From assembly GCA_017517845.1 (NCBI GenBank), contig JAFWXW010000017.1, positions 1 to 36,636 on the forward strand: a stretch of DNA of 36,636 bases, read 5' to 3'. The notes beneath the pieces were generated by a model. That model had not been told where the DNA came from. It was given only the letters and a program-made list of their open reading frames with translations, and did no database searches. The DNA comes from Paludibacteraceae bacterium. GTDB taxonomy: Bacteria > Bacteroidota > Bacteroidia > Bacteroidales > Paludibacteraceae. Below are positions 5,089 through 34,572 of the stretch, in pieces; positions within the stretch are counted from its first letter, which is position 1; the number at the start of each line of letters is the position of its first letter. The position numbers and the translations under genes were made by a program.

Positions 5089-7264
5089 ATGAATGTAGTT
5101 ACAAAAACCATCACATTGGCTGATGGAAGAGAAATCAGCATCGAGACTGGAAAACTAGCTAAACAAGCTGACGGTGCTGTTATGGTTCGCATGGGAAACA
5201 CCATGCTTTTAGCTACGGTTTGTTCTGCACAAGATGCAGTTCCTGGCACAGACTTCATGCCACTTACCGTTGAGTACAAAGAAAAATTTGCTTCTGCAGG
5301 ACGCTTTCCAGGAGGTTTCACTCGTAGAGAAGGTAAAGCATCAGATTACGAAATCTTAACTGCACGTCTTGTTGATCGCGCACTTCGTCCCTTGTTCCCA
5401 GATGATTATCACGCAGACACTTTTGTAAACGTAACACTATACTCTGCTGATGGTGTTGATATGCCAGACGCACTTGCTGGTCTAGCTGCTTCTGCTGCTA
5501 TCGCAGTTTCTGATATTCCATTCAATGGTCCTATTTCAGAAGTTCGCGTAGCTCGCATCGATGGTGAGTTTGTTGTAAACCCAACATTTGAGCAATTAGA
5601 AAAAGCAGACCTAGATATTATGGTGGCTGCTACACTTGATAACATTATGATGGTAGAGGGTGAAATGAACGAAGTTTCAGAAGCAGACCTTCTTAATGCT
5701 ATCCGCACTGCTCACGAAGCTATTAAACCTCACTGCCAAGCTCAATTAGAATTGATGGAAGCTGTGGGCAAAACTGTTAAACGCGAATATTGTCACGAAG
5801 AAAATGATGAAGAGTTGAGAAAAGACGTTCGCGAAAAAACTTATGCAAAAACTTATGAATTAGCTAAATCTTGCAACACAGACAAACATTCTCGTGGCGA
5901 AAACTTCAAGGCTGTTCGTGAAGAATATAAAGCAACATTCTCAGAAGAAGAATTGGAGGAAAAAGCAGCCCTTATAGACCGCTACTATCACGATGTAGAA
6001 AAAGAAGCTATGCGTCGTGCCATTCTAGACGAAGGCATCCGCTTAGACGGTCGTAAAACCACAGAAATTCGTCCTATCTGGTCAGAAGTAGGTTATCTAC
6101 CTGGTCCTCATGGTTCTTCTATCTTTACTCGTGGCGAGACTCAATCTCTATGTAGTGTTACTCTAGGTACAAAACAAGATGAAAAAATCATAGATGAATC
6201 ATTAATTCAAGGCAAAGAACGTTTCTTACTTCACTACAATTTCCCTCCATTCTCTACAGGTGAGGCTCGTGCTCAACGTGGTGTTGGTCGTCGTGAAATT
6301 GGTCACGGAAACTTAGCTTGCCGTGCATTAAAACGTATGATTCCAGACAACTATCCATACGTAGTACGCGTGGTTTCTGATATTCTAGAATCTAATGGTT
6401 CTTCATCTATGGCTTCTGTTTGTGCTGGTACTCTTGCACTTATGGATGCAGGTGTTCAAATTAAGAAACCTGTTTCTGGTATTGCTATGGGTCTTATCTC
6501 AGAAAATAAAGGAACCAATTATGCAGTACTTTCTGACATCTTGGGCGACGAAGACCACTTAGGTGATATGGACTTCAAAGTTACAGGTACAAAAAGACGG
6601 TATCACTGCTACCCAAATGGATATCAAGGTAGATGGTCTTTCTTATGAGATATTAGAAAGAGCACTTGCTCAAGCACGCGAAGGTCGTATGCACATATTA
6701 GGTAAGATAGAAGAAACTCTACCTGCTCCACGCGAAGACTTCAAACCTCATGCTCCACGTATTGTTACTATCAACGTGCCAAAAGATATGATAGGTGCTA
6801 TCATAGGTCCTGGCGGTAAGATTATCCAAGCAATGCAAGCAGAAAGTGGTGCTAGCATCTCTATCGAAGAACAAGACAACTATGGCGTAGTAGAAATAGC
6901 TGCAAACAACAAGGAATCTCTAGATTGTGCAGTACGCAAAGTGAAAGCTATCGTAGCTGTACCAGAAGTAGGTGAAACATACGATGCAGTAGTAAAATCT
7001 ATCATGCCATACGGTGCATTCGTAGAATTTATGCCTGGTAAAGAAGGTTTACTTCATATTTCAGAAATCAGCTGGGCTCGCATAGAAGACATGGAAAAAG
7101 CTGGTCTTAAAGAAGGTGACGAAATTCAAGTTAAACTTCTAGACATAGACAAAAAGACAGGTAAGTTTAAACTTTCTCACAAAGTTCTTACTCCTCGTCC
7201 TCCACGTCCTGCAAAACCAGAAGCCAAGGCAGAAGCAAAAGCTGAAGAAAAACCAGCAGAATAA
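5089..7264 (+). CDS. pnp: Polynucleotide phosphorylase, with a one-base frameshift at 6591-6595
   Basis: PNPase phosphorolytically degrades RNA from the 3' end and is a cytoplasmic RNA-turnover enzyme. The first frame (5089-6648) holds both RNase PH-like domains and then becomes nonsense after VTGTK. The continuation, [14 protein letters not shown], is in the +1 frame from 6596 and runs to the stop at 7264. Removing one A from the A5 run at 6591-6595 restores a 724-residue protein of normal length. The second part carries the KH domain (IIGPGGK near residue 570), an S1 domain (about 626-698) and a Pro/Ala/Lys/Glu-rich tail. Codon use is that of a highly expressed gene on both sides of the break, so decay is either very recent or the extra base is a sequencing or assembly error. 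The open frame at 6563 is only the continuation, not a separate gene. Confidence 0.9.
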
Positions 7265-7305: not shown

Positions 7306-7380
7306 CGGGATGTAGCTCAGCCCGGTTAGAGTACACGTCTGGGGGGCGTGTGGTCGCTGGTTCGAATCCAGTCATCCCGA
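7306..7380 (+). tRNA. tRNA-Pro (anticodon GGG)
   Basis: The acceptor stem CGGGATG pairs with CATCCCG, with discriminator A at 7380 and no encoded CCA. The D arm has GCTC/GAGT. The anticodon stem CACGT/GCGTG encloses the loop CTGGGGG, which gives anticodon GGG for proline codon CCC. The T loop is the canonical TTCGAAT. Confidence 0.9.
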
Positions 7381-7395
7381 CAAATCCGAGCAGCG

Positions 7396-12784: not shown

Positions 12785-12826
12785 TAACTCCTAACTCCTA
12801 ACTCCTAACTCCTAACTCCTAACTTT
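12785..12826 (+). repeat. TAACTCC heptamer array between truB and queA
   Basis: Five perfect TAACTCC units (12785-12819) plus one degenerate unit (TAACTTT) fill most of the 53-nt gap between the truB stop and the queA ATG and end 2 nt before that ATG. Copy-number change would alter the queA ribosome-binding region. Confidence 0.9.
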
Positions 12827-29396: not shown

Positions 29397-29431
29397 TAAC
29401 TCCTAACTCCTAATTCCTAACTCCTAACTAT
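29397..29431 (+). repeat. TAACTCC heptamer array upstream of the DUF2400 gene
   Basis: Four units (TAACTCC twice, TAATTCC, TAACTCC) and a degenerate fifth end 5 nt before the TTG start of the next gene. Confidence 0.85.
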
Positions 29432-31525: not shown

Positions 31526-32233
31526 ATGCAACAGTATAGAATTTTAGTAGTAGATGACGAAGAAGATTTATGCGAGATTCTTCAATTCAACTTGGAGCAA
31601 GCTGGATATATTGCAGACACAGCCTTCTCTGCAGAAGAGGTCATAGAAAAAAAATTATACGATTATGATTTATTTCTACTAGACATAATGATGGGAGAAA
31701 TCTCTGGTTTCAAACTTGCTACACACCTCAAAAAAATAGAACAGTGTGCCAATAAGCCTATAATATTTTTAACAGCAAAAGACACAGAAACTGATAAACT
31801 TAGAGGATTCTCAGTTGGAGCTGACGACTATATTAGCAAACCATACTCTATTAACGAAGTAATGGCAAGGGTAAAAGCTGTCCTTAATAGAACTTCTAGA
31901 AGCACATCTACCATAGAAAACGAACCAAACAAACCTCTCAAAGACGAAATCATAGAGTTTGAAGATTTAAAACTGAATCTTACACAGAAAAACCTATTCA
32001 TCAACGATCAAGAAATCATCCTTACCAAACGTGAGTTTGAACTTCTTAGATTCTTCCTTAAATATAGAAATGTAGTTCTTTCTAGAGAACAACTAGCAGA
32101 AGAAATATGGAAAGAAGAAAGTTTCATTCAAGGTCGCACCATAGATGTAAATATTACTAGACTTCGCAAAAAGATAAAACCGTATGATAAGAATTTGATT
32201 ACTAGACAAGGGTACGGGTACATATTTAGTTAG
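31526..32233 (+). CDS. OmpR/PhoB-family response regulator
   Basis: 235 residues. Receiver domain: acidic pocket VDDEED (9-14), phosphoacceptor Asp53 in LLDIMMGE, switch Thr in FLTAKD, and Lys in YISKPYS. C-terminal winged-helix domain with the typical LTKREFELLRFF, RTIDVNITRLRKKI and RQGYGYIF. It is a DNA-binding transcription factor normally controlled by a histidine kinase; none is in the window, so it is an orphan here. RprY-like identity is possible but not shown. The stop TAG lies in the first unit of a heptamer array whose last units form the terminator. Confidence 0.93.
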   Translation: MQQYRILVVDDEEDLCEILQFNLEQAGYIADTAFSAEEVIEKKLYDYDLFLLDIMMGEISGFKLATHLKKIEQCANKPIIFLTAKDTETDKLRGFSVGADDYISKPYSINEVMARVKAVLNRTSRSTSTIENEPNKPLKDEIIEFEDLKLNLTQKNLFINDQEIILTKREFELLRFFLKYRNVVLSREQLAEEIWKEESFIQGRTIDVNITRLRKKIKPYDKNLITRQGYGYIFS

Positions 32234-32264
32234 GAGTTAGGAGTTAGAAGTTAGGAGTTAGGAG
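32230..32264 (+). repeat. TTAGGAG heptamer array at the response-regulator stop
   Basis: Five units: TTAGGAG, TTAGGAG, TTAGAAG, TTAGGAG, TTAGGAG. The stop codon TAG (32231-32233) is in the first. It is the reverse complement of the TAACTCC arrays. Confidence 0.9.
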
Positions 32265-32284
32265 TTTTCCTAACTCTTTTTTTG
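32255..32284 (+). terminator. Intrinsic terminator built from the heptamer array
   Basis: GAGTTAGGA (32255-32263), which is array sequence, pairs perfectly with TCCTAACTC (32268-32276) around GTTT and runs into seven T residues. Confidence 0.8.
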
Positions 32285-32309
32285 TTCAAAAATATTTAAA
32301 ATTATTTTT

Positions 32310-32325
32310 TGGCACGGAAATTGCT
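32310..32325 (+). promoter_or_regulatory. Consensus sigma-54 (RpoN) promoter for htpG
   Basis: TGGCACG (32310-32316), four bases (GAAA), then TTGCT (32321-32325) is a perfect match to the -24/-12 consensus TGGCACG-N4-TTGCW. The invariant GG (32311-32312) and GC (32323-32324) are separated by exactly 10 nt. Transcription would start near 32336, giving a leader of about 34 nt. No TAnnTTTG element was found between the terminator and htpG. No enhancer-binding protein gene is visible in the window. Confidence 0.8.
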
Positions 32326-32369
32326 GTAATATTTATAGTAATAATTAAACTAAACAAAATAATCATAAT

Positions 32370-34497: not shown

Positions 34498-34571
34498 GGC
34501 TGCATAGCTCAACTGAATAGAGCGTCACACTACGGATGTGAAGGTTACAGGTTTGAATCCTGTTGCGGTCA
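34498..34571 (+). tRNA. tRNA-Arg (anticodon ACG)
   Basis: The acceptor GGCTGCA pairs with TGCGGTC, with two G-T wobbles (2-71 and 4-69). D stem GCTC/GAGC. Anticodon stem TCACA/TGTGA encloses CTACGGA, anticodon ACG. T stem ACAGG/CCTGT. Discriminator A, no encoded CCA. Position 19 is A (34516) instead of the near-universal G, and position 56 is T (34554) instead of C, so the tertiary pair is A-U; 15-48 is also A-U. Confidence 0.85.
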
Positions 34572-34572
34572 C

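Follow-up and report, generated by a model that had tools for sequence, protein, structure and literature searches.

The htpG gene of the Paludibacteraceae genome analysed here stands behind a sequence, TGGCACGGAAATTGCT, that reads as a sigma-54 core promoter, and judged from sequence the control of htpG by this sigma factor is well supported. The site is quite probably a member of a Bacteroidia sigma-54 proteostasis (heat-shock) regulon that is driven by an enhancer-binding protein (EBP) lacking a sensor domain, and the mechanism that we set out for this regulon as a whole is likely. Taken by itself, the htpG promoter is a further case of the sigma-54 chaperone promoters that have already been published. 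The window, by which we mean the whole stretch of 36,636 nucleotides that was analysed, is contig 16 of an assembly of 1.68 Mb in 38 contigs, with an estimated completeness of 81%.

A sigma-54 core upstream of htpG

The core lies on the forward strand between positions -60 and -45 relative to the ATG of htpG, and its -24 GG and -12 GC elements are separated by exactly 10 nt (Table 1). The window has a single exact match to TGGCACG-N4-TTGCW, where dinucleotide shuffles predict 0.01. With up to two mismatches allowed there are four matches against 2.8 expected, which is chance level, and the three matches other than the htpG site each carry two mismatches. Between htpG and the response-regulator gene, which ends at 32233, the forward strand has no TAnnTTTG element and the reverse strand has one, at 32287-32294. 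The first-pass annotation, which had described a perfect RpoN consensus with GG-N10-GC spacing 45-60 nt before an Hsp90 gene, no TAnnTTTG element in front of that gene and no comparable site elsewhere in the window, was accurate on each of these points. Transcription from sigma-54 promoters begins about 12 nt downstream of the -12 element, which would place the start of the htpG transcript where Table 1 predicts it.

Table 1. Features at the htpG promoter of the window, and genes elsewhere in the host genome that are faced by matching sites outside ORFs
Feature	Position	Strand	Details
Predicted sigma-54 core promoter of htpG	32310..32325	+	-24 element TGGCACG 32310-32316; spacer GAAA 32317-32320; -12 element TTGCT 32321-32325
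htpG (Hsp90), 685 aa	32370..34427	+	ORF; Pfam HSP90 (PF00183), 1.4e-47
Predicted transcription start of htpG	32335..32337	+	about 12 nt past the -12 GC, from general promoter geometry
Position of the relatives' dyad, empty in the window	32284..32309	+	by alignment to 54 of 80 loci
Array of AGTTAGG heptamers (32228-32266), continuing into a putative terminator hairpin with a T run	32228..32285	+	Tandem Repeats Finder; hairpin by eye
groES	site 84 nt upstream		perfect TGGCACG-N4-TTGC
dnaK	site 190 nt upstream		one mismatch
clpC-like gene, GTG start	site 48 nt upstream		one mismatch
ECF-sigma-like gene (Sigma70_r4_2, 8.5e-9)	site 85 nt upstream, G000:C19:35773-35786	minus	TGGCATAGAATTTGC
438-aa protein of unknown kind			faced by one non-ORF site
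dnaX (named by eye) and a 91-aa ORF			faced by one palindrome, counted on both strands

The hairpin and T run listed in Table 1 stand after the upstream response-regulator gene. Arrays of the AGTTAGG/TAACTCC heptamer were seen at three places in the window (12785-12824, 29397-29429 and 32228-32266), one of which precedes htpG; a similar run, noted by eye, comes immediately before the groES core, at a place where the dyad described below is missing. The sequence GTTAGGAGTTAG was found in 27 of 386 fetched loci, every one of them from the host genome. Several other features of the window were recorded. A tRNA-Arg (acg) lies directly downstream of htpG (34498-34572) and a tRNA-Pro (ggg) at 7306-7381; the contig starts with a 207-bp tandem repeat in 8.8 copies (1-1824); and polynucleotide phosphorylase is split into overlapping ORFs at 5089-6648 (RNase PH and PNPase domains) and 6563-7264 (KH and S1), a frameshift that is either real or a product of the assembly.

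Conservation of the core in relatives

The sample of relatives comprised 80 htpG loci (best-segment identity 66-83%), one of which, L073, is short of upstream sequence. The strict pattern TGGCACG-N4-TTGC, sought in the 300 nt upstream of htpG in 79 relatives, was perfect in 1, and had one mismatch in 12, two in 24, three in 41 and four in 1; its reversed version gave no perfect match and a single one with one mismatch in the same relatives. The looser pattern TGGCAY-N5-TTG was sought in 200 nt, in 79 relatives and the window. It was exact in 76 of these 80 loci (75 of the 79 relatives, and the window), with one mismatch in three and two in one, against exact matches in 0 of 80 for the reversed pattern, 0 of 80 for a first-order Markov resample and 1 of 80 for the opposite strand, the loci including near-identical species and hence fewer than 80 independent cases. 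The motif named by the first-pass annotation is thus conserved in this looser form, whereas the strict TGGCACG-N4-TTGCW is not kept. A second sample, which may have species in common with the first, consisted of 61 genomes of the window's family, 53 with an HtpG match and 51 with a usable start; here TGGCAY-N5-TTG was exact before htpG in 45 of the 51.

Within the 75 aligned relatives the GG-to-G spacing is kept, most columns being fixed by the search pattern itself. Core base 11, which the pattern leaves free, is T in all 75 and A in the window, and the base that follows the -12 G is A in 54%, C in 20%, T in 16% and G in 9% of them. Having A at that base together with a perfect GC makes the window unusual among its own kin.

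A dyad at a fixed distance from the core

Upstream of the core, TGNCA boxes cluster at offsets 17-18 and 25-26. The dyad TGNCA-N3-TGNCA is exact in 55 of the 80 htpG loci, in 54 cases with its first base 24-26 nt upstream of the -24 TGG, and TGNCA pairs with spacers of 0-2 or 4-8 nt occur in only 0-3 of the 80 loci each. The family sample gave a similar picture, as 45 of its 51 genomes have the dyad with at most one mismatch (38 of them exactly) and six, including the window's genome, show at least three mismatches. Indeed, the best match within 80 nt of the window's htpG core has mismatches at 4 of 8 bases, and at offset 24 there are five; by eye, no dyad was seen upstream of the host groES either. 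Classical EBP sites lie at about -80 to -150, and the relatives' dyad, being nearer to the core, falls outside the range of such upstream sites. A literature search, which covered few subscription journals, found no description of such a dyad at a fixed close distance, none of an EBP assigned to these promoters, and no Bacteroidetes rpoN mutant with a heat-shock effect.

We combined dyad and core, as derived from the htpG loci, into the composite TGNCA-N3-TGNCA-N12-TGGCAY-N5-TTG, and sought it in 396 genomes of the class, namely the window's own and 395 that are at least 95% complete. There were 75 matches, in 71 of the 396 genomes and 39 of 196 genera, and the backwards pattern gave none. Seventy matches were examined, those in G085, G275, G070, G319 and G375 being left out, and among the ORFs that begin within 260 nt of the composite the longest was taken as the downstream gene. 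By blastp against host proteins the composite precedes htpG in 46 cases, dnaK in nine and clpB in one; by Pfam it precedes hsp20 in four, clpP in two, thioredoxin genes in two, and lon, a dnaJ-type gene, lemA and a phosphodiesterase gene in one each, where for hsp20, clpP and thioredoxin one case each was assigned by eye. Of the two sites that remain, one faces a short doubtful ORF and the other has no ORF before the contig end.

Proteostasis genes therefore stand downstream of the composite at 64 of the 70 sites. Since the pattern was built from htpG loci, the 46 htpG matches are partly there by construction, and the fair test is the other 24 sites, of which 18 precede proteostasis genes, two thioredoxin genes and four others. 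Both thioredoxin cases come from the family f42 (L229 and L230, genomes G305 and G148), and the matches in G275, G070, G319 and G375 are from f42 too, with site sequences similar to those of G305 and G148.

Matching sites in the host genome

The composite has no match in the window's own genome, and with the dyad absent at htpG and none seen at groES it is evidently not used there. For the core alone, TGGCACG-N4-TTGC with at most one mismatch occurs at 30 places in the whole genome, against 10 for the backwards pattern, and TGGCAY-N5-TTG at 50 against 21. Pooling both patterns gives 67 distinct sites, of which 55 lie within ORFs (100 aa or longer) and 12 do not, so that the motif taken by itself is of limited predictive value. 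Eight of the 12 sites outside ORFs point towards an ORF that starts no more than 250 nt away (Table 1); the other four do not. Only two perfect TGGCACG-N4-TTGC sites exist in the host genome, one at htpG and one before groES, and the latter falls inside the gene cluster that also encodes the EBP. In addition, the region upstream of the host clpB contains TGGTAT-N5-TTG, preceded by TGTCA-N4-TGGCA as read by eye. GrpE was not found in the host genome, owing either to incompleteness or to divergence. The site before the ECF-sigma-like gene (locus L145) would allow for a possible cascade from sigma-54 to an ECF sigma factor.

RpoN and an enhancer-binding protein without a sensor domain

The host genome encodes RpoN (G000:C32, 500 aa), with the AID, CBD and DBD domains of Pfam, and rpoN was found in 391 of 396 Bacteroidia genomes, the five negatives being assemblies of 170-460 contigs. 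It also encodes one true EBP (PF00158, 8e-69), a protein of 388 aa with an AAA+ domain (16-182), a lid (188-263), a C-terminal HTH of the Fis type (HTH_8, 344-384) and a GSFTGA loop. Three further PF00158 matches are weak (E 6e-7 to 4e-5) and look by eye like Clp-type ATPases; at 81% completeness of the assembly a second EBP could be missing. Both components that the first-pass annotation would have looked for in the genome are thus present. The host EBP has no N-terminal sensor domain, and 18 aligned orthologues start at about the same place.

In the host the gene order is pdxA-EBP-lptE-TPR-secG-groES-groEL, where lptE was named by Pfam and the others by eye, the "TPR" protein having no Pfam match. 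Across 18 other genomes, in some of which a contig end truncates the region, lptE comes after the EBP in 16, secG in 15 and groES in eight, and pdxA adjoins it in two. Upstream of groES in the eight linked genomes, the best match to TGGCAY-N5-TTG has no mismatch in one and one mismatch in seven, and the dyad is exact in one and has one mismatch in two more; both of these counts are uncontrolled.

At least one EBP is encoded in each of the 396 Bacteroidia genomes (PF00158, E <= 1e-40, with at most eight candidates scored per genome). An orthologue of the host EBP is present in 19 of 20 chosen genomes, host included, while the twentieth, G266, has a C-terminal EBP fragment close to the beginning of a contig, together with a more distant paralogue; in the family, 56 of 61 genomes have the orthologue (E <= 1e-80). 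Three genomes are informative as to which protein acts at the composite: in G358, G176 and G339, where it precedes dnaK, lon and htpG, respectively, the orthologue is the sole EBP shown. If these sites are sigma-54 promoters and the assemblies are complete, this EBP would be the one that serves them.

Most aligned orthologues carry SERTLYRK, or nearly so, in the HTH, and the host has MSIRTLYRK. Over 47 family genomes in which both helix and dyad could be read, the E of SERT is changed in two of five dyad-negative genomes versus one of 42 dyad-positive ones (Fisher p 0.027, kinship ignored). The dyad-negative genomes G404, G414 and G443 retain SERT, and a sixth, G412, has no EBP at the cut-off. 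As the residue was picked after seeing the host genome, and kinship was ignored, an association between helix and dyad is suggestive only, and the idea that a changed EBP helix goes with a lost dyad is accordingly a weak, post hoc one.

The architecture of the host EBP, AAA+ plus HTH with no N-terminal sensor, is also that of PspF of E. coli, a sensorless EBP that is held by PspA. PspF has sites farther upstream and a different regulon. The AAA+ domain of the host protein matches PspF chains at E of about 5e-52, and NtrC-family and FleQ chains score higher. Heat-shock control by HrcA/CIRCE and by RpoH acts on target genes that overlap with those found here. Unlike the system described here, HrcA/CIRCE control needs hrcA, which was found in 0 of 20 genomes, host included, by a search that was positive in 7 of 14 control genomes; HrcA was consequently set aside as a regulator of these chaperone genes.

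Alternative readings of the dyad and the core

It is conceivable that the core is a sigma-54 promoter as read, and that the dyad serves as operator for a different regulator, such as an OmpR-family repressor of the RprY type, with the EBP needing no specific site. The accessible text of PMC3646045 describes gel shifts of P. gingivalis RprY with groES, clpB and dnaK promoter fragments and proposes it as a repressor, but there RprY did not bind the htpG promoter, yet the dyad is present at most htpG loci. The dyad is unusually near the core for an EBP site, and the gene immediately before htpG does encode an OmpR-type response regulator (Pfam) in the window, as it does in L040 and in L036 (cut by a contig end). 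Yet among the 76 loci that have over 1 kb of upstream sequence this regulator adjoins htpG in only one (L040), and with L036 as the one addition we rejected it as a conserved neighbour of htpG. The EBP orthologues, moreover, keep a conserved HTH, a domain that would be superfluous in an activator without a site. We therefore regard a foreign operator as unlikely, and prefer the reading in which the dyad is served by the EBP.

Far less probable is that TGGCAY-N5-TTG forms part of a three-box TGNCA repressor operator, or a variant of the housekeeping promoter, rather than a sigma-54 core. Such a reading would account for the -24 TGGCA being itself a TGNCA box and for the -12 GC being mostly GA in relatives. 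It sits poorly with the constant spacing from GG to the -12 G in the 75 aligned relatives (most columns pattern-fixed) and their invariant T at the free base 11, with the presence of rpoN in 391 of 396 genomes, and with start sites in F. psychrophilum that put -24/-12 elements before the same genes (accessible text of PMC9723704). That the htpG site is a meaningless chance match is hardly credible and was excluded, for although the window holds about as many two-mismatch versions as chance would give, and just one of 79 relatives has the strict motif in perfect form, an exact site is expected 0.01 times, the second perfect site lies at groES, and the looser core is found at the same place in 75 of the 79.

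Discussion

The present results join a published set of sigma-54 promoters. According to the accessible text of PMC9723704, a start-site map of F. psychrophilum places sigma-54-type (SM4) promoters before groES-groEL, lon, dnaK, grpE-dnaJ, htpG and clpB, which is the same sigma-factor type and the same target genes as here; mutagenesis confirmed the motif at the remFG-sprCDBF gliding operon, not at a chaperone gene. The same text leaves the activators open, mentioning three EBP-domain proteins of which none is assigned to chaperone promoters, and shows no upstream dyad, as opposed to the dyad seen in relatives here. The tags in its Table 2 (0733 EBP, 0732 LptE, 0729 GroES and 0728 GroEL) fit the gene order of our host. 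A cross-phylum comparison from 2025 predicts heat-shock chaperones in Bacteroidota, and Hsp90 (COG0326) in Bacteroidia, to be under sigma-54, and states that groES and grpE of B. thetaiotaomicron are sigma-54 dependent (PMC12316311); it works with core-promoter matrices and the enrichment of gene categories, and its accessible part names no dyad or activator for these genes. In the accessible text of two B. thetaiotaomicron transcriptome papers, "RpoN" has no matches and no sigma-54 promoter is named (PMC10994844, PMC7366714).

Sigma-54 control of htpG, as put forward in the first-pass annotation, is hence favoured by RpoN, the EBP, the conserved core and the similar sites before groES, dnaK and the clpC-like gene. 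Its suggestion that such control had not been described fails because of the F. psychrophilum precedent, with promoters of this type before htpG and other chaperone genes (PMC9723704), and the Hsp90 enrichment in Bacteroidia (PMC12316311), each as given in the accessible parts of these papers.

We propose that RpoN-RNA polymerase would sit at TGGCAC/TTGC as a closed complex, whose opening would require ATP hydrolysis by an EBP. In many relatives, the dyad just upstream of the polymerase, with a centre that we infer to be near -45, would be bound by a protein, most likely this EBP. The window's lineage lacks the dyad at both htpG and groES, and so the EBP may activate these two genes there from solution or through weak contacts. 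A sensorless EBP is most likely controlled by a partner protein, in the way that PspA controls PspF, and the free chaperone pool would be the first candidate. The genes of the regulon would probably be heat-induced. The weakest links in this scheme are which protein binds the dyad and what the signal is.

Going further, and only tentatively, heat shock in Bacteroidia might run on sigma-54 together with one sensorless EBP, often linked to groESL, acting on a dyad that adjoins the closed polymerase on its upstream side (centre near -45), with no distant enhancer. The free chaperone pool might set its activity, and the window's lineage might have dropped the operator at htpG and groES while the recognition helix drifted.

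A named activator gene, often beside groESL, a defined operator and a conserved core now make the control of heat shock in Bacteroidota without HrcA directly testable in tractable laboratory strains. If the proposal is true, these bacteria would mount their heat-shock response through sigma-54 activation powered by ATP.
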